Assembly: GCA_016931225.1 (NCBI GenBank)
Contig: JAFGFE010000040.1
Location: 131,149 to 188,815 of the forward strand
Direction of reading: 5' to 3'
Source of the DNA: Candidatus Zymogenaceae bacterium
GTDB lineage: Bacteria; Desulfobacterota; Zymogenia; Zymogenales; Zymogenaceae
DNA length: 57,667 nt
Below are positions 31,936 to 42,024 of this stretch, in pieces. Every line of letters starts with the position of its first letter. Positions within the stretch are counted from its first letter, which is position 1. Made by a program: the position numbers and the translations under genes. Under the pieces are notes generated by a model. That model ran no database searches. It had not been told where the DNA came from and saw nothing but the letters and a program-made list of their open reading frames with translations.

Positions 31936-33297
31936 TTATTTCTCCAACTCTATATTGTATGCCTTTATTTTTTTATGCAAATGGCTTCTTTCAAGACCCA
32001 GGGCCTTGGCGGTCTGGGTGATGTTGTAGTCATTCTCCGACAACTTCTTCGTAATAAAAACCTCCTCAAAATGCTCCCTGGCCTCCTTGAGGCTTTTATG
32101 ATGCAACAGATCGTCGGTGATGTCGTGATCGTCCCCGCTTCGAATCGATACGGGCAGATCACCGACGCCGATGACCTGCTCTGGAGACATGATGATGAGT
32201 CGCTCGATGAGGTTCTTCAATTCCCGGACGTTGCCGGGCCATCGATACCGGGTGAGCATTTTCATGGCGGCGTCGTTGATGCTCTTTTTTCGTCTCTTGT
32301 CCTCTCCGGCGAACTCTTCGATGAAATGCTCGGCTAAAAGCGGGATGTCCTCGAGCCTGTCCCGAAGGGGCGGCACGTACAGCGGTATGACGTTGAGTCG
32401 ATAGAAAAGGTCCTCCCTGAAGGTGCCGCTTTCAATCTTTTTCTTCAGATTCTGGTTCGTGGCGGCAAGCACCCGGACGTCGACCTTGATGGTCTTGGTG
32501 CCGCCGACTCGGGAAAACGTCTGCTCCTGGAGAATGCGGAGAATCTTCGCCTGGGTCATGACGCTCATATCCCCGATTTCGTCGAGGAGAATCGTCCCGC
32601 CGTCAGCCATGTCGAATTTGCCGACCTTCTTGCCGGTCGCACCGGTAAACGCACCCTTTTCGTATCCGAACAGCTCGCTTTCTATCAGCTCTTCCGGGAT
32701 TGCAGCGCAGTTGACATCGACGAACGGGCTGTCCTTTCGATTGCTCATGGAATACACCGCCCGGGCCACGAGCTCCTTGCCGGTGCCGTTCTCACCGTTG
32801 ATGAGCACATAGCTGTCGGTGGGCGCCGCCCGCTGAATTTCATCTTTCAGCTGCTTCATGACCGCACTCTTGCCGACAATGGTGATATCGGTATCGAAAC
32901 GCTGACGATAGAGCGACACCTGCTTTTCCAGCTTTCGCTCCTTGAGGGCGTGATCGATCGTGAGAATCACCTTCTCCAGAGACAGCGGCTTTTCAATAAA
33001 ATCATAGGCGCCCAGCTTGGTGGCGGTCACGGCGGTTTCAATATTACCGTGTCCGGATATCATGATCACCGATACGTCGTACGGTTCCGCCTTGATCCTG
33101 CGAAGCACCTCCATTCCGTCCATTTGGGGCATCCAAATATCCAGGAGGAGTAGGTGGGGTCGCTCCGTCTCCAGAAGCTCAAGGGCCGAAACGCCGTCGG
33201 CGGCGGTTAATACCTGATAGCCCTCATCGGTCAGGGCGCCGGCGAGAGACCGGCGGATGCTCTCTTCGTCATCTACTATGAGAATTCTTCGTTTCAT
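31936..33297 (-). CDS. ntrX: NtrX-like sigma-54 response regulator
   Basis: 453 residues. The receiver (1-120) has acidic IVDDEES, phospho-acceptor in LLLLDIWMPQMDG, and FIEKPLSLEKV. The AAA+ sigma-54 interaction domain (~140-370) has Walker A GENGTGKE, GAFTGA contact loop with YEKGAFTGATGKKVGKF, Walker B GTILLDEIGD and RYRWPGNVREL. The C-terminal Fis-type helix-turn-helix (~410-450) ends KALGLERSHLHKKIKAYNIELEK, the ending typical of NtrX. It activates sigma-54 promoters when phosphorylated by NtrY. It overlaps ntrY by four bases (33294-33297). Target genes are unknown. Confidence 0.95.
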   Translation of the reverse strand: MKRRILIVDDEESIRRSLAGALTDEGYQVLTAADGVSALELLETERPHLLLLDIWMPQMDGMEVLRRIKAEPYDVSVIMISGHGNIETAVTATKLGAYDFIEKPLSLEKVILTIDHALKERKLEKQVSLYRQRFDTDITIVGKSAVMKQLKDEIQRAAPTDSYVLINGENGTGKELVARAVYSMSNRKDSPFVDVNCAAIPEELIESELFGYEKGAFTGATGKKVGKFDMADGGTILLDEIGDMSVMTQAKILRILQEQTFSRVGGTKTIKVDVRVLAATNQNLKKKIESGTFREDLFYRLNVIPLYVPPLRDRLEDIPLLAEHFIEEFAGEDKRRKKSINDAAMKMLTRYRWPGNVRELKNLIERLIIMSPEQVIGVGDLPVSIRSGDDHDITDDLLHHKSLKEAREHFEEVFITKKLSENDYNITQTAKALGLERSHLHKKIKAYNIELEK

Positions 33298-35516
33298 TGT
33301 ATCGAGACAGGTAAATCAATAATAAACTTGGTGCCGTGGGGTGTATTGTCTATGACCCTGATATACCCGCGATGGTCTGATATGATCGTGTTGACGATGG
33401 TCAAACCGAGGCCGGTGCCGGTCTTTTTCGTGGAATAATAAGGCTCGAACAGGCGGTTTTTCCCCTCTCGGCTGATGCCGGGGCCTGTATCGGCGATAAC
33501 CAGCCGAGCGACGTTGAGATCCTTCATGTATTCGGTCTTGATATCTATGCTGCCGGTGCCGCTGAGGGCCTCGACGGCGTTATCCAACAGGTTGATAAGG
33601 GCCCGTTTTATTTGTTCACGATCAAGCTGCATGATCGGAAGTCCCTGGTTGGCCTGGTAATTATAGGTGATATCCTTGTAAGCGTCTTTGTACAGGTTCA
33701 GGGCCTCCCGCACGATTTCATTCAGGTCGTTGGGACGGGGACGGGCGGACGGCATGCGGGCGAAATGGGAAAACTCGTCGACCAAGCTCTTCATCTCCTC
33801 GACCTGGGTGATGATGGTATCCGTGCATTCTTCCAACACTTCCCGGTCGTCCCCGAGCATATCGAAATATTTTTTTCGTATACGCTGGGCCGAGAGCTGT
33901 ATGGGGGTGAGGGGATTCTTGATTTCATGGGCGATGCGTCGGGCCACCTCCCGCCACGCGTACATTTTCTGCGCCCGGTTGATTTCCGTCATGTCATCGA
34001 AAACTGTCACCACCCCCATGAACTTTTCATCCTCATCAAGGAGATGATTGCCCGTAGCAAGGATGGTGACATTTCGGTCCTCCAGGGGGATATCGAGCTG
34101 GCGCTGTAGGGATCGATCCGGGGAATCTCTCAAATCGTCCAGAAACTCCCTCAGCGCCCGATACTGATCCTGGGAAAGCACCTCCCCTACGGGACGATTG
34201 ATGATCCTGGCCATCTTGATGGCAAGAATCCGTTCCGCGGACTTGTTGATGGTGGTGATCATTCCATCCCTGTCAATGGAGATGACACCCGCCGCGACGT
34301 TTTTCAGGATGATTTCCATGTGCGCCCGACGGCGATCCAGCTCTATATTCGAGCGGGAGAGCTCGTTATACGCCTTCTCCAGCCTTTGGGACTGCGACTT
34401 GAGATCCTGGGTCATCTTGTTGAATGAGTCCACCAGGATACCGACCTCGTCCTTTGCATTGACGTCCACAAAGACGTCCATGTCCCCCTCAGCGACCTTT
34501 CTGGTCCCCTCGGCCAAAAGCGACAGGGGCACGGTAATCCCTTTGGCGAGATAGAATCCGAGCCACGTGGCGGTGAACACCACCAACAGCGCGATTCCCG
34601 AGAGAGTAATCAGATAGCTGATGACGATCGGCTTTTTCAAAAGCTTGTTGGTCTTGTATTCCTCAAGGAACCTGCTGATATCGGTCATTTTCGCCAGGAG
34701 AGATTTGGGAACGAACCGCGCGGTCATCACCACGCCGACCACCTCTCCCGAATCATTGGCTATCGGGAACAGCGCCCACACCACGTCCCCGTACCCGCTG
34801 TTCTGGATGGTCGCCACGGCCTTTCCTGCCAGGGCGTCGTCAAAGAGTACGATGTTCAGGTGTTCCAACGCCCCTTCCGGGATGTCATTCCCCACCGAAG
34901 AGGCGAGCTCGCGCATGTCGGGAGAAAACACCTTGACGAGCCCCAGGCCGAATCGCTCCCGGGACGAATCGACGAGACGCTTCAGGGCCGCCTCCTCAAG
35001 AGGCAGTGTCGTCAGACCCCCCACTTCCCGGGCGGCGTCGGCCACCTCGCCGGTGGCGGTGGAGTAATATGTCTGGGCGATCTCCAGGGACCCTTCAAGG
35101 GAGTTTTCCACCTGAACGTTGAAAAATTTGTCCATGCTGGCGGAGAAGAAAAAGATGGCGGCGAGAAACATCACCAGTGTGGGAAAAAGCGTCAGCCCCG
35201 CAAAGCTGAGCACCAGTTTTGTCCTGAGCCGCACCATCTGGGCGAGCTTTCGCCGCTCGAAGATCAGCTTTACGAGGTTTCTGAGAACCAGGAAGATGAC
35301 CAGCACCAGAAGTATCAGGTTGATATCCACCAGGGCGATGAGCAGGATATTTTCCCCGACGCCGATATCCAGGTCCTTCTGGGTCAGGTACGTACCCAGC
35401 CATATGATCAGGCCGATAGCGATGACCGAGATGATGATGATCGCCCGTTCCCGTCGCCACCTGGCCTCCTGGGAAGTGAGCTTTCTTTTCTTTTTGCTTC
35501 TAAACCGTATCTTCAT
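33294..35516 (-). CDS. ntrY: NtrY-like membrane sensor histidine kinase
   Basis: 740 residues. Three membrane helices near 24-45, 57-82 and 98-126 and a fourth near 300-325 enclose a ~170-residue extracytoplasmic sensor region. A HAMP domain (~325-380), PAS (~395-500) and kinase follow. The H-box RRIAHEIKNPLTPIQLSAQRIRKKY is the NtrY hallmark. The N-box LINLLDNAVEAL, G1 ADTGPGIS and G2 GTGLGLTIV are intact, so it should be active. Upstream, DUF4390 and lpxC sit 17 bases and one gene away in the same orientation. Gene order with lpxC suggests a sensor of envelope state, which is inference. Confidence 0.95.
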   Translation of the reverse strand: MKIRFRSKKKRKLTSQEARWRRERAIIIISVIAIGLIIWLGTYLTQKDLDIGVGENILLIALVDINLILLVLVIFLVLRNLVKLIFERRKLAQMVRLRTKLVLSFAGLTLFPTLVMFLAAIFFFSASMDKFFNVQVENSLEGSLEIAQTYYSTATGEVADAAREVGGLTTLPLEEAALKRLVDSSRERFGLGLVKVFSPDMRELASSVGNDIPEGALEHLNIVLFDDALAGKAVATIQNSGYGDVVWALFPIANDSGEVVGVVMTARFVPKSLLAKMTDISRFLEEYKTNKLLKKPIVISYLITLSGIALLVVFTATWLGFYLAKGITVPLSLLAEGTRKVAEGDMDVFVDVNAKDEVGILVDSFNKMTQDLKSQSQRLEKAYNELSRSNIELDRRRAHMEIILKNVAAGVISIDRDGMITTINKSAERILAIKMARIINRPVGEVLSQDQYRALREFLDDLRDSPDRSLQRQLDIPLEDRNVTILATGNHLLDEDEKFMGVVTVFDDMTEINRAQKMYAWREVARRIAHEIKNPLTPIQLSAQRIRKKYFDMLGDDREVLEECTDTIITQVEEMKSLVDEFSHFARMPSARPRPNDLNEIVREALNLYKDAYKDITYNYQANQGLPIMQLDREQIKRALINLLDNAVEALSGTGSIDIKTEYMKDLNVARLVIADTGPGISREGKNRLFEPYYSTKKTGTGLGLTIVNTIISDHRGYIRVIDNTPHGTKFIIDLPVSIQ

Positions 35517-35533: not shown

Positions 35534-36106
35534 TCAATAGATAAACTCCTCGACATACCAGCCGGTATCGAATTCCCACAAGTTCGCGAAAAACAGTACA
35601 TACCGAATCGATTCCGGCACCTCCATCTTGTCCAGCCGTGATCGTATCCGAACCTGATATCGCTCTCCCTTTTCCAATACGTTCATGGTCGTCAGCGGGT
35701 AAAAGCGCACCTGTCCCATCGCCAGTACCGCCTCCTCATAGGTATCGTAGACCAGCGGGGAGGCACGGCCCTCCTCCCGGTAGACGGTGTATTCGTCGGT
35801 AAGACTGTCGTAGGTGATGGTGTGTGTGAAGGTTTTTTTCGTTATCGTCGGATCGAACCAGAAAAACTGGCTCTTTTTCAATTCTATGATAAAAACGAAT
35901 GTGGTTGAGATACCGCTGTTTATCGCCTCTTCCATGTCCTCGGTAAAGCATTCATCGATATTGAAGTAGACATAGGTATCATTTTGAAATTTGGTAATGA
36001 TCACGTTTGTGATGCAGGGATCTTCCGCCATGACCGTTCCGGCCATGAGAACACCACAGGCTGCCATACAAAGCGCAAGGTAGATTTTTATACAGCGATG
36101 TATCAT
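35534..36106 (-). CDS. DUF4390 family exported protein
   Basis: 190 residues. A signal peptide (~1-27, ALCMAACGVLMAGTVMA) precedes a beta-rich domain: NVIITKFQNDTYVYFNIDECFTEDMEEAINSGISTTFVFIIEL fits DUF4390, whose members are typically found just before ntrY in deltaproteobacteria. It is a periplasmic protein of unknown role, possibly a sensory partner of NtrY. Its start overlaps the lpxC stop by four bases (36103-36106) and its stop lies 17 bases before ntrY, so the three genes are translationally coupled. The conserved aromatic run RYVLFFANLWEFDTGWYVEEF ends the domain. Confidence 0.85.
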   Translation of the reverse strand: MIHRCIKIYLALCMAACGVLMAGTVMAEDPCITNVIITKFQNDTYVYFNIDECFTEDMEEAINSGISTTFVFIIELKKSQFFWFDPTITKKTFTHTITYDSLTDEYTVYREEGRASPLVYDTYEEAVLAMGQVRFYPLTTMNVLEKGERYQVRIRSRLDKMEVPESIRYVLFFANLWEFDTGWYVEEFIY

Positions 36107-36960
36107 ATCGTCACAATTTCATATGCGCCGCGCCGGGAGAGTTCCTCGAGGAGCATGAGGTTCAGGCGATGCCCCGATTTTCGGGCGACGTACCGCCCCG
36201 AGAGGGGCAGGTCGAACAGGGCCATATCCCCCACGGCGTCAAGACACTTATGGCGGACACACTCGTCCGGAAAGCGAAGGCCGCCGGGATTGAGGACGCC
36301 CTCATCGCCGATGATCAGGGCCGTTTCGAAAGAGCCGCCCATCCCCCTGCCCTGCTCCAGAATCATGGACACATCCGCCTCTAGGGCGAAGGTGCGGGCC
36401 GGGGCGATCTCCCTTTTAAAGCACTCCGGGCTCACCGAACAGGCGAACCGCTGGGTCCCGATGTGCGGATTGTCATAGACGATGGTATAATCAAGCTCCA
36501 ACCCGTCACCCGTCGCCTGCCGGGGCTTGAGGGTCGCGGATTTCCCGTCTTCCGACACCGTTACCGTTTCCATAACCCGAGCGATGCGTCTTTGGGCGTC
36601 AAGGAGTGTGACTCCCGCCTCGTCAAGAAGCGCCACGATAGGACGGGCGCTTCCGTCCATGATCGGGACTTCAGGACCGTCAAGGATCACGGTCACATTA
36701 TCAATCCCCAAAGCGGAGAAACAGGCCATGAGGTGCTCCACCGTCTGTACTTCATGACCGTTTTCCTTCAGCGACGTCGCAAGCAGGGTATGGTGCACCC
36801 GGGAAAAATGCGCGGGGATACGGATATCTTTTTCACCATCTCTCCTGACAAAACCGATCCCCTCATCCGGCCCCGCCGGGATGAGGTTCGCCGTCACGGT
36901 GTTACCGGAATGGATTCCCACCCCATCGATCCGGACGGGCTGTGCGATGGTCGTTTGCAT
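36103..36960 (-). CDS. lpxC: UDP-3-O-acyl-N-acetylglucosamine deacetylase (LpxC)
   Basis: 285 residues; catalyses the committed step of lipid A synthesis. Zinc ligands His76 (QTVEHLMA), His237 and Asp241 (RHKCLDAVGD) and the general acid His264 (KSGHRL) are present. The substrate loops around VGIHSG and PIMDGSARP are normal. It is cytoplasmic. ATG 36960 starts MQTTIAQPVRIDGVGIHSG as in the family. It is the first gene of a lpxC-DUF4390-ntrY-ntrX transcript. It shows the organism has an LPS-type outer membrane. Confidence 0.97.
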   Translation of the reverse strand: MQTTIAQPVRIDGVGIHSGNTVTANLIPAGPDEGIGFVRRDGEKDIRIPAHFSRVHHTLLATSLKENGHEVQTVEHLMACFSALGIDNVTVILDGPEVPIMDGSARPIVALLDEAGVTLLDAQRRIARVMETVTVSEDGKSATLKPRQATGDGLELDYTIVYDNPHIGTQRFACSVSPECFKREIAPARTFALEADVSMILEQGRGMGGSFETALIIGDEGVLNPGGLRFPDECVRHKCLDAVGDMALFDLPLSGRYVARKSGHRLNLMLLEELSRRGAYEIVTI

Positions 36961-37009: not shown

Positions 37010-37705
37010 TCATATCGGTCCGATACGGGCGGGCTCGTCGGCAAGGAGCCTCTGCTGTACCGTATAGGCGCTGACGGGATCCTTCAGATATTGTCCCTCA
37101 AGACTGAAGGGGACAAATATCAGGAGGGGGGACTGGAGCGTAACGGAGAGGGCTGATACGAACTCCGTGGAATTCTTCTTGTTTTCGGATAAAGTCGAGA
37201 TAAAAATAGTCCTGCCGTAGTTTTTGGCCGTCTTGTCCGGGAGCACCGGGCCCCAGGCGTGTCCCTTCCTTGGGCCTCCCGGTTCGAAAACGGGTTGTCT
37301 GTAGGTATATCTCTTGGAAATGTTCAGTCGCTGCGTTTCCGCACGAAGCCTGAACGCCGCGACAAACAACGTCAGGGGCCGATTTACAATTCGTTCTATC
37401 GTCTGCACAAAGGCGATGTGGCGTGCATAGGTGTGAAAATCCTCGATGTCGCCCGTCGGTGTGTGGGCTGTGAGCCGATAGGTCCAGAAGGGGAGATAGG
37501 AAGGATTGACGATGTCGGTCTGTGCGAAGAAGTACTCCCGCTGAACGAACGTGCCGTGGGCCTCCTCCCACAGGTCGTGGCAGTTGGGGCACAACAGCAC
37601 CGCGTCGCTGTCGGTCAGGCCCAGCCGGTGCCACCCGCACCGGGGACAGCGTACCGGCAAGAGCGAGAGATTCGTCACCTTATTCAATGACCACCTCCCC
37701 GTCAT
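37010..37705 (-). CDS. Zinc-ribbon protein of the SPFH operon, unknown function
   Basis: Up to 231 residues. The N-terminal zinc ribbon is C-P-R-C-G (~19-23) and CPNCHDLW (~39-46). The rest is a soluble alpha/beta domain without a clear membrane helix. ATG 37705 overlaps the preceding gene by 26 bases; a TTG at 37687 with GGGGAGG eight bases upstream, or a GTG at 37678, would nearly abut it, so the start is uncertain. It is the fifth gene of a minus-strand row (41328 down to 37010) of zinc-ribbon proteins and an SPFH protein, and likely belongs to the same complex. I recognise no named family. Confidence 0.7.
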   Translation of the reverse strand: MTGRWSLNKVTNLSLLPVRCPRCGWHRLGLTDSDAVLLCPNCHDLWEEAHGTFVQREYFFAQTDIVNPSYLPFWTYRLTAHTPTGDIEDFHTYARHIAFVQTIERIVNRPLTLFVAAFRLRAETQRLNISKRYTYRQPVFEPGGPRKGHAWGPVLPDKTAKNYGRTIFISTLSENKKNSTEFVSALSVTLQSPLLIFVPFSLEGQYLKDPVSAYTVQQRLLADEPARIGPI

Positions 37706-38693
37706 CCCAGGGCCTGACGATATGCTTGTAAAAGAACCTGGTTATCCCCGATCTGTCCGGCAGCATAAAAAAGATAAACGCACCCACTATCAACAACGGG
37801 ACGAAAAATTGTTTGAGCACGGCGATGAGAAACGCCGTCGTTCCCGCAATGAGCACCCCGGGCAGCAGGTTCACTCTGCTGCGAATCGGTATACGCGCCC
37901 TGACGATCTCGCCGCTGACGCCGTCCACCACCACGCGAACGGCATGATCCCCCATTAAAAACCTGACGACCCACAGGGGGTGGTATATCTGGGAGAGCTC
38001 TTCCGAAACCTTCTCCGCCTCAAAATAGTCAAGCGTCACATCGCTCGGCCGCGCCGCGCTCACCAGCATCGACCATGCCTCCCGAACGGCGGTTTCGGGG
38101 TCCTTCACCGGATCGAAGAACATCCCCCTGGTCTTCTGGTCCTCATCTCTCAGAACATGGAGCTTCAGGATGCTGGACTTGGTGGAGATGCCGAACCTCC
38201 CCAGGTCGCTGATGTCGACGGCGGGGCTGAAATAGGTTCCCTCCTTGACGAACACATTGTTGATCTTCTTTTTCATCGGATGGACATAGATGGGCTGTCC
38301 GTTTTCATCCACCCCCACAGACTTCGGAGCCGTTTTGGTTTCATGGGCGATGTACCACCCGCCGCCCCGCAGCTTCACCCGGAAGAAGGGGACGTAGACG
38401 AGTTTCGCGTCTATCATGCGCACGGCCATTCTCTGTCCCTCGTCGGCCAAGGATTTTTCGACGAGCCTCTTTACCGACGCAACCGCCTGGGATCGTGAGG
38501 CCCTGCGGGGGATATAGAATCGCTTGATGCCGCCCGTGCCTGAGATGATGTGGGACATCCCGCAGTGGGCGCACGCGACGGTGGTGGCCCCCTCGACGAA
38601 ATCGATGCCGGAGCCGCAGCCGGGACAGGTCACCGCGATGGTGAAGCTGTCGACCGCGGATTTACCCGATGACGGTGTGGATGTGGGATTCAA
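37680..38693 (-). CDS. Zinc-ribbon membrane protein, YdjG-like
   Basis: 337 residues. The N-terminal TFIIB-type zinc ribbon VTCPGCGSGIDFVEGATTVACAHCG spans ~22-46. It is followed by a long soluble part (VYVPFFRVKLRGGGWYIAHETKT around 100-120; IYHPLWVVRFLMGDHAVRVVVDGVSGEIVRARIP near 235-270) and membrane helices near 278-315 (LLPGVLIAGTTAFLIAVL then FVPLLIVGAFIFFML). The PLWVV-x-Y/F-x-VDG/SG-x motif is usual in TFIIB-like membrane proteins next to SPFH proteins. Size and layout resemble Bacillus YdjG, which anchors PspA/YdjI at the membrane. The homology is by pattern only. Confidence 0.72.
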   Translation of the reverse strand: MNPTSTPSSGKSAVDSFTIAVTCPGCGSGIDFVEGATTVACAHCGMSHIISGTGGIKRFYIPRRASRSQAVASVKRLVEKSLADEGQRMAVRMIDAKLVYVPFFRVKLRGGGWYIAHETKTAPKSVGVDENGQPIYVHPMKKKINNVFVKEGTYFSPAVDISDLGRFGISTKSSILKLHVLRDEDQKTRGMFFDPVKDPETAVREAWSMLVSAARPSDVTLDYFEAEKVSEELSQIYHPLWVVRFLMGDHAVRVVVDGVSGEIVRARIPIRSRVNLLPGVLIAGTTAFLIAVLKQFFVPLLIVGAFIFFMLPDRSGITRFFYKHIVRPWDDGEVVIE

Positions 38694-38756
38694 ACGATAC
38701 CTATCCTGTGATTACGTGACACCGTCGGTTGAACGCCGTCGGTTGAAAAATCCGGT

Positions 38757-39503
38757 TCAATTGTTTCTAAGCACCAGTGGCGAAGAGAGCAGAAAGACGA
38801 TCATGGCGCCGACGATGACCGAAATCTGCATCAGAAGGGATCCCGAGAAAACAAAACCGAGAATCAGGCAGACCAAAAACGTGATTATAAAAAAAACCAG
38901 GGGACGATAATTTCTTTTCTCCCTTGAAAATTCCTTCACGGCGTCGGAATAGACCCGGGCAGCGTCACCGATGATTGACGCCTTGTGCCGAACGCCGTCG
39001 ATCGTAAACGAGAAGAAATAAATCGGCAGGTATATCAACCACAACCGGACGAGGCCGTTCAACGAATCTCGATCGCCCTTGGTCCAGTGCGTGGCGGCTT
39101 CCGGCGGAATCGTGGGCTCCGCCGTCTCCCCCAGGTCGTCCTTCTCCCGGTCGTAGTATATCAGGTCACCCGCAGGGATACGGAAGGACGATATCTCCGT
39201 GTGTGTGGTATGGGCGGCCGGCTGGGTGAACGAGACGCCGTCCGAATGGGTGATGTGCCAGATGGGAAAATAGGAGAACTCTATCGCCAGGTCCTTCGGC
39301 TCATCATCGATCCCCGCATCCTTCAGTTGAGACAAAAGAAAGACTTTCGCCCAGATATCGTTTCTTTTATGTTCGAGGAAGAAACACTCAAAGGTGCGGT
39401 CCTTTTCGACAAGCAGGGAGGAGCGACAAAACGGACAGGTGATGAACCGTCTGCCGTCCTCGATGTCGATCTTGGCGCCGCACTGGGAACAGGCTACTAT
39501 CAT
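38757..39503 (-). CDS. Zinc-ribbon membrane protein, YdjH-like
   Basis: 248 residues. The N-terminal zinc ribbon is CSQCGAKIDIEDGRRFITCPFC (5-26). A soluble domain contains YFPIWHI (~79-85), SFRIPAGDLIYYD and YLPIYFFSFTIDGVRHKASIIGDAARVYSD, the same P-(I/L)-(Y/W) plus VDG-like strand motif seen in the previous gene, so the two are probably paralogous in fold. Two membrane helices near the C-terminus (YRPLVFFIITFLVCLILGFVFSG; LLMQISVIVGAMIVFLLSSPL) anchor it. Size and order relative to the SPFH gene match YdjH. The inferred role is a membrane platform for the SPFH protein. Confidence 0.72.
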   Translation of the reverse strand: MIVACSQCGAKIDIEDGRRFITCPFCRSSLLVEKDRTFECFFLEHKRNDIWAKVFLLSQLKDAGIDDEPKDLAIEFSYFPIWHITHSDGVSFTQPAAHTTHTEISSFRIPAGDLIYYDREKDDLGETAEPTIPPEAATHWTKGDRDSLNGLVRLWLIYLPIYFFSFTIDGVRHKASIIGDAARVYSDAVKEFSREKRNYRPLVFFIITFLVCLILGFVFSGSLLMQISVIVGAMIVFLLSSPLVLRNN

Positions 39504-39557
39504 GATGATCGATGATAACCGGATGCGAAGGCTGACACACAGGTCCGCCGAAAGAAT

Positions 39558-40736
39558 TTACTCAACCTTCTCCCCGCATTCGGTACAGAACTTGGCGCCC
39601 TCGGGCAGCTTTGCACCGCACTTTGGGCAGGCATGCTCCTCTCCCACCGGCTTTCCGCAGAGAGGACAAAACTTGTCCTCGGGCGAGAGGTTCTTGCCGC
39701 AGTGAGCGCACTTGTTCACCACCACAAGCTGGCTGCCACAGTTGTTGCAAAATCGTGCGTTGACCGGCACCTGGGCGTGGCACTTGGGACAGTTGGCGTA
39801 TCCCTGTTTCTGTACGTCCGCGACGGTGGAGGGTCCCTCGGCAAGGGTGCGAAAGAGCATGCCGGGCACCATCATGCCGAGACCCGCGCCCACACCCACG
39901 CCCATCCCGGCGGCGGCACTGGAGGCAACCCCTCCCTCGCCGCCCGCGGCGGCGGCTCCTCCGGCCCCCGGAACGACGCCCTCGGACCCGATCTTTCCCA
40001 GGGCCCGGGCGGCCTCGAATTTCAGGAATTCGTTCATATCGCCGATGACGCCCATGCCGGTACGCTCGTCGATGACCTTCTGGACCTCGTCGGGAGGGGT
40101 AATCTCGTTGATGAAGAAATCTATCAGCTCGATGCCGAACTTGTTGAAGTCGTCCTTGATGCGCACCTTGGCCACCACCGCCAGCTCATCGTAGTTCTGG
40201 GGCAAATCCAGGATGCTCTTCATGTGTTCGCCCAGAAGATCGTTCAGACGGCTGACAATCACATCCCGGAGATACCCGGATATCCCCTCGGTGGTCATCA
40301 TCCCCTTGGTGGCGACCAGGGTGTTGATGAAAAGGAGCGGCTGGGTGATACGTAGCGTGTAATTTCCGTATGCCCGCAGGCGCACCAGCCCGAACTCGGA
40401 ATCCCGAAAGGCCACTGGGTTCCTGGTCCCCCACTTCATGTCGGTGAAGATCTTCATGTTGACGAAGAGGACCTCGACCCGGAAGGGACTCGTCGAATCG
40501 AACGGCATTGCGATGAGCTTCGTCAACAGCGGCAGGTTCATGGTGGTCAGGGTATGCCTTCCCACGCCGAACACGTCAAGCCCCTTGCCGTCTCGAAAGA
40601 AGACCGCCGTCTGGTTTTCCCGGATGATCAACTGGGACCCCAGCTTCGTCTCCGCCGAGCCGGTCTCGGGGATACGATGAATCATCTCTGTATCGTCTTC
40701 AAAAAAGTATTCTATGACATCCAGTATCTTCGCCAT
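39558..40736 (-). CDS. SPFH-domain protein with three C-terminal zinc ribbons (YdjI-like)
   Basis: 392 residues. Residues ~5-240 form a YdjI-type SPFH (band 7) domain: SQLIIRENQTAVFFRDGKGLDVFGVGRHTL near 33-62, LFVNMKIFTDMKWGT near 89-103, and VRIKDDFNKFGIELIDFFINEITPP near 195-220. A Gly/Ala/Met-rich linker (~255-300) leads to three CxxC-CxxC zinc ribbons (NCPKC...CNNCG; KCAHCG...CPLCG; ACPKCG...CTECG). It has no membrane helix, so it is recruited by partners. SPFH proteins build membrane-associated assemblies; YdjI of Bacillus positions PspA. Here the neighbours are a coiled-coil protein and zinc-ribbon membrane proteins. Confidence 0.85.
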   Translation of the reverse strand: MAKILDVIEYFFEDDTEMIHRIPETGSAETKLGSQLIIRENQTAVFFRDGKGLDVFGVGRHTLTTMNLPLLTKLIAMPFDSTSPFRVEVLFVNMKIFTDMKWGTRNPVAFRDSEFGLVRLRAYGNYTLRITQPLLFINTLVATKGMMTTEGISGYLRDVIVSRLNDLLGEHMKSILDLPQNYDELAVVAKVRIKDDFNKFGIELIDFFINEITPPDEVQKVIDERTGMGVIGDMNEFLKFEAARALGKIGSEGVVPGAGGAAAAGGEGGVASSAAAGMGVGVGAGLGMMVPGMLFRTLAEGPSTVADVQKQGYANCPKCHAQVPVNARFCNNCGSQLVVVNKCAHCGKNLSPEDKFCPLCGKPVGEEHACPKCGAKLPEGAKFCTECGEKVE

Positions 40737-40791
40737 GTATCAATCCTCCGTGAGAATCACCCGCTCACATATGAAAATCGATTGTCTCTCT

Positions 40792-41328
40792 CTATTCGTG
40801 TCCCTTGGTGACCACATATTTCCTGTTTTCGAATATTCGCTCCATGTTGTCGATGAACGTGGAGACGGCCGCCAGCTCCTCGGTCAGCCTGTCGGGATCG
40901 TTTACGTGATCGGAAAGCGCCTCCAGGTGCTTGTCCATCTCCTCCACTTCCGCCAGCATATCGAGGTCGTAGGTGTACAACGCCTCCAACTCGGCATCGA
41001 GGATCTTCACCGGATCGAAGAATCCGGAATAGCCGTGAGAGGCATACGTGATCTCGTCCCGGAGCCGATCCAGACGTCTATTGAGGCGATCCAGTCGGTC
41101 CAGGCCCTTGAGGCGACCCGATTCGCTCAGCTCTTCCATGACACCCATCAGCGCCTTCTTCATGTGATCATAGCGCTCGGCGATATGTTCCCGAATGATC
41201 TTGTCCCGCTCCCGGGCGTTTTCCCGCTTCAGGTAGTCTCCGAAGCCGGGGACGATTTCGACGATCTCCTCGATCTTCCTGGCCAGCCCCTCGGAGATCC
41301 CCTCCCAGAATACGCCTTTTTCCGGCAT
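40792..41328 (-). CDS. Coiled-coil protein preceding the SPFH gene
   Basis: 178 residues, almost fully helical and highly charged, no signal peptide, no membrane segment. Helices such as GFGDYLKRENARERDKIIREHIAERYDHM (~28-56) and LDRLDRLNRRLDRLRDEITYASHGYSGFFDPVKI (~76-109) form a coiled coil with a marked GYSGFFD turn; LEALYTYDLDMLAEVEEMDKHLEAL follows. I recall similar proteins beside SPFH/zinc-ribbon genes in other phyla, though I cannot name a family. Size and helical nature make it a possible stand-in for PspA, a family it does not visibly match. Start ATG 41328; it lies 55 bases before the SPFH gene. Confidence 0.75.
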   Translation of the reverse strand: MPEKGVFWEGISEGLARKIEEIVEIVPGFGDYLKRENARERDKIIREHIAERYDHMKKALMGVMEELSESGRLKGLDRLDRLNRRLDRLRDEITYASHGYSGFFDPVKILDAELEALYTYDLDMLAEVEEMDKHLEALSDHVNDPDRLTEELAAVSTFIDNMERIFENRKYVVTKGHE

Positions 41329-41622: not shown

Positions 41623-42024
41623 TCAGCGAATCCCCTCGAAGGCGACCCACCAGTCCGCATGTTCCCCCCGATGATACACCGGGATATCCACCTCATCCCA
41701 GAGGGGAAGCGGCACTACGGCAAAGAATACGCTTCCGTCAAAGTCGAAAGCGTATGCCCGCACTTCATAGGGAACCCTGCGCTGCTCGAGGGCCACCAAC
41801 ATCTTTTCACCCGGCATGAGCCGTCCCATGTATATTTCATCGATGACGATATTCAGCTCCACCGGGCCGAAATCTGTGGGGGCGATGTCCGTATCGTTAA
41901 AGATTTTCCCGGTGATGAGCTCCCCTTTGTCTTGGGAGACGGCAACCATCGGAGCGCTGGCGGCAAGGGTAAGCGCCGCGCACAGAATGATGATGCCCAG
42001 TGCGGTTTTCCTCGTATATGTCAT
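41623..42024 (-). CDS. Small exported protein of unknown function
   Basis: 133 residues. A signal peptide (~6-29, TALGIIILCAALTLAASAPMVA) is followed by a ~100-residue beta-rich domain (ELITGKIFNDTDIAPTDFGPVELNIVIDEIYMGRLMPGEKMLVALEQRRVPYEVRAYAFDFDGSVFFAVVPLPLW), with no Cys in the mature part. The start ATG overlaps the stop of queH by four bases (42021-42024), so it is translated after queH. I know no functional link to queuosine. It is likely periplasmic. Confidence 0.72.
   Translation of the reverse strand: MTYTRKTALGIIILCAALTLAASAPMVAVSQDKGELITGKIFNDTDIAPTDFGPVELNIVIDEIYMGRLMPGEKMLVALEQRRVPYEVRAYAFDFDGSVFFAVVPLPLWDEVDIPVYHRGEHADWWVAFEGIR

Follow-up and report, generated by a model that had tools for sequence, protein, structure and literature searches.

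A five-gene operon on the minus strand of a Candidatus Zymogenaceae genome (phylum Desulfobacterota; assembly GCA_016931225.1, contig JAFGFE010000040.1) encodes an SPFH protein together with a helical protein, here called CC, which is not PspA and which appears from conserved gene adjacency to be the dedicated partner of one SPFH subfamily. The window analysed is the whole stretch of 57,667 bp from which the operon comes. The other three genes encode zinc-ribbon proteins (C, D and E), and D and E are the split halves of a double-zinc-ribbon protein (DE) carried as one chain by most Desulfobacterota. The products probably build an SPFH scaffold, YdjI-like in the broad sense. The genes are as follows, in the direction of transcription:

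40792..41328, minus strand: CC, 178 residues, all-helical (open reading frame (ORF), AlphaFold2 model, match to NF047596)
39558..40736, minus strand: SPFH, 392 residues, with a Band_7_1 domain (Pfam), a Gly/Ala-rich linker and three C-terminal zinc ribbons
38757..39503, minus strand: C, 248 residues, with a zinc ribbon and a C-terminal hydrophobic hairpin (alignment, hhalign, hydropathy)
37680..38693, minus strand: D, 337 residues, with a zinc ribbon, a beta-rich domain and a predicted transmembrane hairpin; TTG start (hhalign, hydropathy, AlphaFold2)
37010..37687, minus strand: E, about 225 residues, with a zinc ribbon; likely start TTG 37687 (hhalign)

All five ORFs were confirmed at these coordinates and are co-directional, in agreement with the first-pass annotation, which had described five minus-strand genes in a row. 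CC, SPFH, C and D are separated by 55, 54 and 63 bp, and D then overlaps E. The overlap had also been recognised earlier. A start of E at TTG 37687 instead of ATG 37705 gives an overlap of 8 bp which is kept exactly in all three relatives (loci L011, L012 and L013), making TTG 37687 the most likely start. Such an arrangement suggests coupled translation. The order QueH-Z-CC-SPFH-C-D-E-LpxC-DUF4390-NtrY is kept in 4 of 4 Ca. Zymogenaceae genomes examined; the recurrence of the five-gene order is well beyond chance, and the five genes form one real operon.

The SPFH protein carries the features of the YdjI type, with a Pfam match to Band_7_1 (E 3e-61; 207 bits, the cut-off being 24) followed by a low-complexity region and by three zinc ribbons, the same three that had been read from the sequence at first sight. 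No transmembrane segment was found in it by hydropathy scan.

The linkage between CC and SPFH was followed in two collections. A scan of GTDB genomes, independent of the phylum sample described below, gave 22 CC loci, labelled Deltaproteobacteria/Desulfobacterota, Acidobacteriota, Phycisphaerae (Planctomycetota), Chloroflexi (Chloroflexota) and CSSED10-310; those from Acidobacteriota, Planctomycetota and Chloroflexota are from metagenome-assembled genomes (MAGs). An SPFH gene comes next after CC on the same strand at 20 of these 22 loci, and in the two others the sequence ends at CC (L035) or the contig is a 3.5-kb one of low coverage (L024). In the phylum sample of 247 genomes, CC is present in 23 and is adjoined by SPFH in 18 of 23, so the neighbourhood survey that the first-pass annotation had proposed shows frequent rather than rare co-occurrence. 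The five exceptions are the low-coverage contig (L024), three genomes from a single family, whose CC is a divergent orphan, and one deletion scar. In the scar (L138:3376-3613; G221:C46), residues 1-35 of CC are closely followed by residues 424-473 of DE, and SPFH is gone. This matches a deletion running from CC into DE, which indicates that the CC-SPFH-DE locus was lost as a unit. No CC was found in 14 control genomes, B. subtilis included, and none was found on plasmids. Judged by this adjacency, CC would be a dedicated partner of the SPFH subfamily to which the protein of the window belongs.

The AlphaFold2 model of CC (mean pLDDT 78) has five helices, an N-terminal amphipathic one at residues 13-25 and others at 29-69, 76-94, 111-140 and 145-175. 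The GYSGFFD turn pointed out in the first-pass annotation lies in a conserved loop, A-S-H-G-Y-S-G-F-F-D, and proved to be the best conserved region of the family: A96, G99, Y100 and G102 in it are invariant in an alignment of 27 relatives, and the whole invariant core comprises Y32, R39, D42, R46, A96, G99, Y100, G102, L114, D121 and R169. The window's CC has no Pfam match above cut-off. All 27 family members match NF047596, an uncharacterised family named after the Leptospira gene LIMLP_15305. The match of the window's CC is near full-length (residues 18-175, E 1e-16), but its 61 bits lie below the equivalog cut-off of 210 bits, and CC therefore is best placed, on profile similarity, as a distant member of the same superfamily rather than as an equivalog. 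One paper names the LIMLP_15305 locus, only within a table of non-coding RNAs.

CC was also compared with PspA, the helical protein of the B. subtilis system, and the identity was rejected, with no sign of ESCRT-III similarity in profile or fold. The hhalign probability against a profile of ten PspA proteins from the same phylum is 0.4%; a Foldseek search of the CC model against the PDB gave nothing at E <= 0.001, with no PspA or Vipp1 among the 50 matches listed. Sequence searches of the PDB with the CC and DE profiles returned mostly coiled-coil proteins, either designed or unrelated, and ribbons from ribosomal proteins or polymerases. Profile searches found no PspA (PF04012), PspC or TPM-phosphatase (PF04536) in the window's genome, which is 3.7 Mb in size. 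However, PspA is scarce in the whole phylum (above cut-off in 30 of 247 genomes), and it is present in 6 of the 12 other CC-bearing genomes, which were reached through other loci. The association between PspA and CC by genome is not significant in the phylum sample. Replacement of PspA by CC genome-wide was thus dropped as a general rule, and the first-pass reading that CC takes the PspA position is not supported: half of the 12 genomes encode PspA elsewhere, so CC is no simple or general PspA substitute. Seven genomes of the phylum have both PspA and a strong SPFH match, and in these the two are on different contigs. PspA was never a neighbour of the SPFH genes considered here, and by gene order these SPFH systems are independent of it.

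CC might still be a functional counterpart of PspA, i.e. an unrelated helical membrane binder that is held by the SPFH/zinc-ribbon complex and released under envelope stress. Its first place in the operon beside a YdjI-like SPFH gene, its amphipathic N-terminal helix (cationic in most members) and the lack of PspA and PspC in its own genome are in line with this idea. But CC shares neither sequence nor fold with PspA, PspA coexists with CC in half of the 12 genomes and is usually absent from the phylum, and the N-terminal helix of the window's CC is anionic. We regard such a role as unlikely, and consider CC instead as a component of the SPFH scaffold named at the outset.

The zinc-ribbon genes were resolved by profile comparison. 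A four-cysteine ribbon at the N-terminus and a hydrophobic hairpin at the C-terminus are present in both C and D (alignment and hydropathy), as expected from the earlier description of two membrane proteins, and both hairpins recur in all 4 family genomes. E has a zinc ribbon and no convincing transmembrane segment; a single marginal hydropathy window belongs to the copy analysed here and is absent in relatives. SPFH is followed in most Desulfobacterota by the gene for DE, which is 400-500 residues long and contains two zinc-ribbon domains. D matches the N-terminal half of DE (hhalign 99.5%, E 2e-22) and E matches the C-terminal half (99.7%, E 4e-25), while C matches the N-terminal half at 98% and D at 95%. 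When E was compared with D for internal duplication, only the ribbon aligned, with an hhalign probability of 40%. On these alignments, D and E are the split halves of DE, and C is a paralogue of D. The alternative of four independent zinc-ribbon subunits was rejected on the same grounds, and the "fourth zinc-ribbon subunit" of the first-pass annotation disappears with it.

At 65 of 86 SPFH places in the phylum, a DE gene is present no more than 2.6 kb away, and at least three of the remainder are contig ends. Of the genomes with DE, 71 also have SPFH and 2 do not, although these genomes are not independent. In some other places of the phylum, a YdjI-like SPFH gene is followed by a different zinc-ribbon partner with no match to the DE profile (L109:4114-4845, L110:5605-6303, L111:5497-6090 and L143:4839-5519); the one at L109 belongs to PF13453. 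A transmembrane hairpin was found in 0 of 15 fused DE proteins, and DE is split in 4 of 4 Ca. Zymogenaceae genomes. Either the anchor was gained by D on splitting or it was lost by DE on fusing, and the tree described below fits both.

D also shows remote homology (hhalign 84.9%; 96% for the N-terminal half of DE) to a family of zinc-ribbon membrane proteins which adjoin SPFH genes in other Desulfobacterota, Vibrio, Paracoccus and Tsukamurella, and thus appears to be a remote relative of the zinc-ribbon membrane protein paired with SPFH in many bacteria. The AlphaFold2 model of D (pLDDT 72, from 10 sequences) gave no relative among solved structures, and a weak match to YpeB (E 0.29) was disregarded.

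To place the SPFH protein, a maximum-likelihood tree of 50 SPFH proteins was built with a midpoint root; B. subtilis YdjI was left out and some branches are long. The SPFH proteins associated with CC or DE group together and are separated from the phylum's YdjI-like proteins (40 against 10 rows, 100/99); a single long-branch outlier falls within their group. Those with DE only form one clade (100/100) nested among the CC-bearing ones. The simplest reading of this topology is that CC and SPFH may be the older pair, which DE joined later, and that CC was lost once.

Among the known systems closest to the operon is ydjFGHI (PspA-YdjG-YdjH-YdjI). In both, the SPFH protein has a low-complexity linker, a C-terminal zinc ribbon and no transmembrane segment of its own, and is encoded beside integral membrane partners, one of which bears zinc ribbons (PMC8581546, PMC11237479). 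In B. subtilis, YdjI reaches the membrane only with the integral proteins YdjG and YdjH, and holds PspA there (PMC8581546). The first-pass annotation took YdjG and YdjH as a pair of zinc-ribbon membrane proteins, which does not hold for YdjH, a protein with a TPM-phosphatase domain and no zinc ribbon (PMC11237479). The operon of the window contains neither PspA nor a TPM-phosphatase, and has the unrelated CC as helical partner; its SPFH protein has three ribbons and falls in a subfamily apart from the YdjI-like group of the phylum, its D and E match the two halves of DE, with C as an extra D paralogue. With its ribbon, beta domain and transmembrane hairpin, D might be a YdjG-like protein; the comparison made was with the SPFH-linked zinc-ribbon membrane family. 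The novelty with regard to ydjFGHI is the helical partner and the make-up of the zinc-ribbon subunits, and the uncharacterised CC family is the most interesting part. In this form the first-pass suggestion is supported, namely that SPFH and zinc-ribbon proteins make up a generally YdjI-like complex that lacks PspA.

Three other groups share parts of this design. The pairs of SPFH and a TFIIB-type zinc-ribbon membrane protein in Paracoccus, Vibrio, Tsukamurella and several Desulfobacterota have an SPFH gene followed by one for a ribbon/beta/C-terminal transmembrane protein, but this protein has two N-terminal ribbons and one transmembrane segment, with no E half and no CC. On plasmid pFER4 of Paracoccus ferrooxidans (L149:1695-6413), genes for TelA (another helical protein), DUF2927, SPFH and the zinc-ribbon membrane protein stand in a row. 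The pairs of SPFH and fused DE found here in Desulfobacterota belong to the same SPFH clade and have DE halves matched by D and E, but DE is one soluble chain, CC is mostly absent and there is no C paralogue. Archaeal Meth_adaptin ESCRT loci (PMC10936438) likewise bring together SPFH, coiled coil and zinc ribbon in membrane-remodelling loci, but there the coiled coil is fused to SPFH and ESCRT and adaptin genes are present, none of which was seen here.

The surroundings of the operon include two further features:

41623..42024, minus strand: Z, 133 residues, with an N-terminal hydrophobic, signal-like segment (hydropathy); present in 4 of 4 family genomes
35534..36960, minus strand: LpxC and DUF4390 (Pfam), conserved downstream neighbours

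Z had no match in a Pfam search, and its membership in the operon is uncertain. LpxC catalyses the opening step of lipid A synthesis, so the surroundings are partly envelope-related. After LpxC and DUF4390, genes for an NtrY-like kinase and an NtrX-like sigma-54 regulator follow on the same strand (31936-35516 of the window); they are conserved in relatives, with NtrX present after NtrY in family genomes where the sequence extends far enough. A promoter scan found no site upstream of CC, nor any sigma-54 or extracytoplasmic function (ECF) sigma factor motif in that gap, and the lone promoter-like site, before LpxC, is not above chance. A DUF2905 gene, encoding a small protein with two transmembrane segments, immediately precedes CC in two Zymogenaceae genomes (L011:6443-6661 and L013:5834-6067), and likewise in three genomes of another family in which CC has no SPFH neighbour (L121:6297-6509, L122:3-200 and L123:5487-5837). 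No DUF2905 was found in the window's genome.

From gene content, homologies, co-inheritance and predicted topology, we propose that the operon probably specifies a membrane-associated SPFH scaffold at the cytoplasmic face, of the broad YdjI kind, which serves envelope maintenance and whose anchors were rearranged in Zymogenaceae. The SPFH protein would oligomerise, as SPFH domains do, and its zinc-ribbon tail and two genetically linked partners, CC and the double-zinc-ribbon protein, would complete the complex. In most relatives the latter partner would be the single soluble chain DE. In Zymogenaceae it would be divided into D, with a transmembrane hairpin, and E, while the D-like C would give a second hairpin, so that the scaffold may be tethered by integral subunits in this family. 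By analogy with YdjG/H and YdjI, C and D would serve as the tether of the window's SPFH protein, E would complete the DE unit and CC would be an associated helical component. The likely task would be maintenance of the envelope or inner membrane, by holding CC and client proteins at membrane patches.

Several points weigh against this interpretation. The envelope role is suggested by analogy and by the neighbouring genes, and the co-occurrence counts come from related, hence non-independent genomes. Some systems persist with DE and no CC, others as a CC-SPFH pair with no DE, which means that no single subunit set is obligatory. Moreover, the N-terminal CC helix, amphipathic in most family members and cationic in most Desulfobacterota relatives with soluble DE, is anionic in Zymogenaceae (z -3), a charge that speaks against unaided binding to anionic membranes in this family. 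The charge difference fits, weakly and in one lineage, the idea that C and D took over the membrane anchoring from CC. A bolder and rather doubtful extension is that CC founds a new SPFH-tethered, membrane-binding helical family, independent of ESCRT-III/PspA, which performs membrane repair or scaffolding in several phyla, and that Zymogenaceae exchanged a peripheral helix for integral zinc-ribbon subunits as the membrane anchor.

SPFH assemblies, for example the bacterial 24-mer in the account cited by PMC10936438, form enclosed compartments on membranes. This, together with tandem zinc ribbons being typical interaction modules, would also suit a protein-quality-control scaffold of the HflK/C type, in which a protease or client is enclosed by the SPFH ring, the ribbons are adaptors for clients or partners and CC is a lid or adaptor, protection against membrane stress not being its purpose. 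But no protease gene is linked in the neighbourhoods seen, the Lon gene of the window being about 14 kb off, and we think this quite improbable. An anti-phage or conflict system is hardly credible: some SPFH/zinc-ribbon genes are plasmid-borne and have conflict-type neighbours (in Vibrio a TIR gene, in Butyrivibrio genes for restriction and toxin-antitoxin systems), but PADLOC families gave no useful match for any of the five proteins, and in four genomes the genes keep their order by vertical descent, next to housekeeping genes.

In summary, SPFH proteins are universal while the way in which they recruit their partners is poorly understood, and one SPFH subfamily appears to have a dedicated helical partner that is unrelated to PspA. 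The CC-SPFH pair is inherited together across several bacterial phyla, and CC itself has never been studied before. The comparison suggests that SPFH/zinc-ribbon modules can have several helical partners, of which PspA in Bacillus would be just one, beside CC here and possibly TelA in Paracoccus. The double-ribbon partner, fused and soluble in most species but split and, by predicted topology, membrane-anchored in one family, would be a natural experiment on the tethering of SPFH scaffolds.

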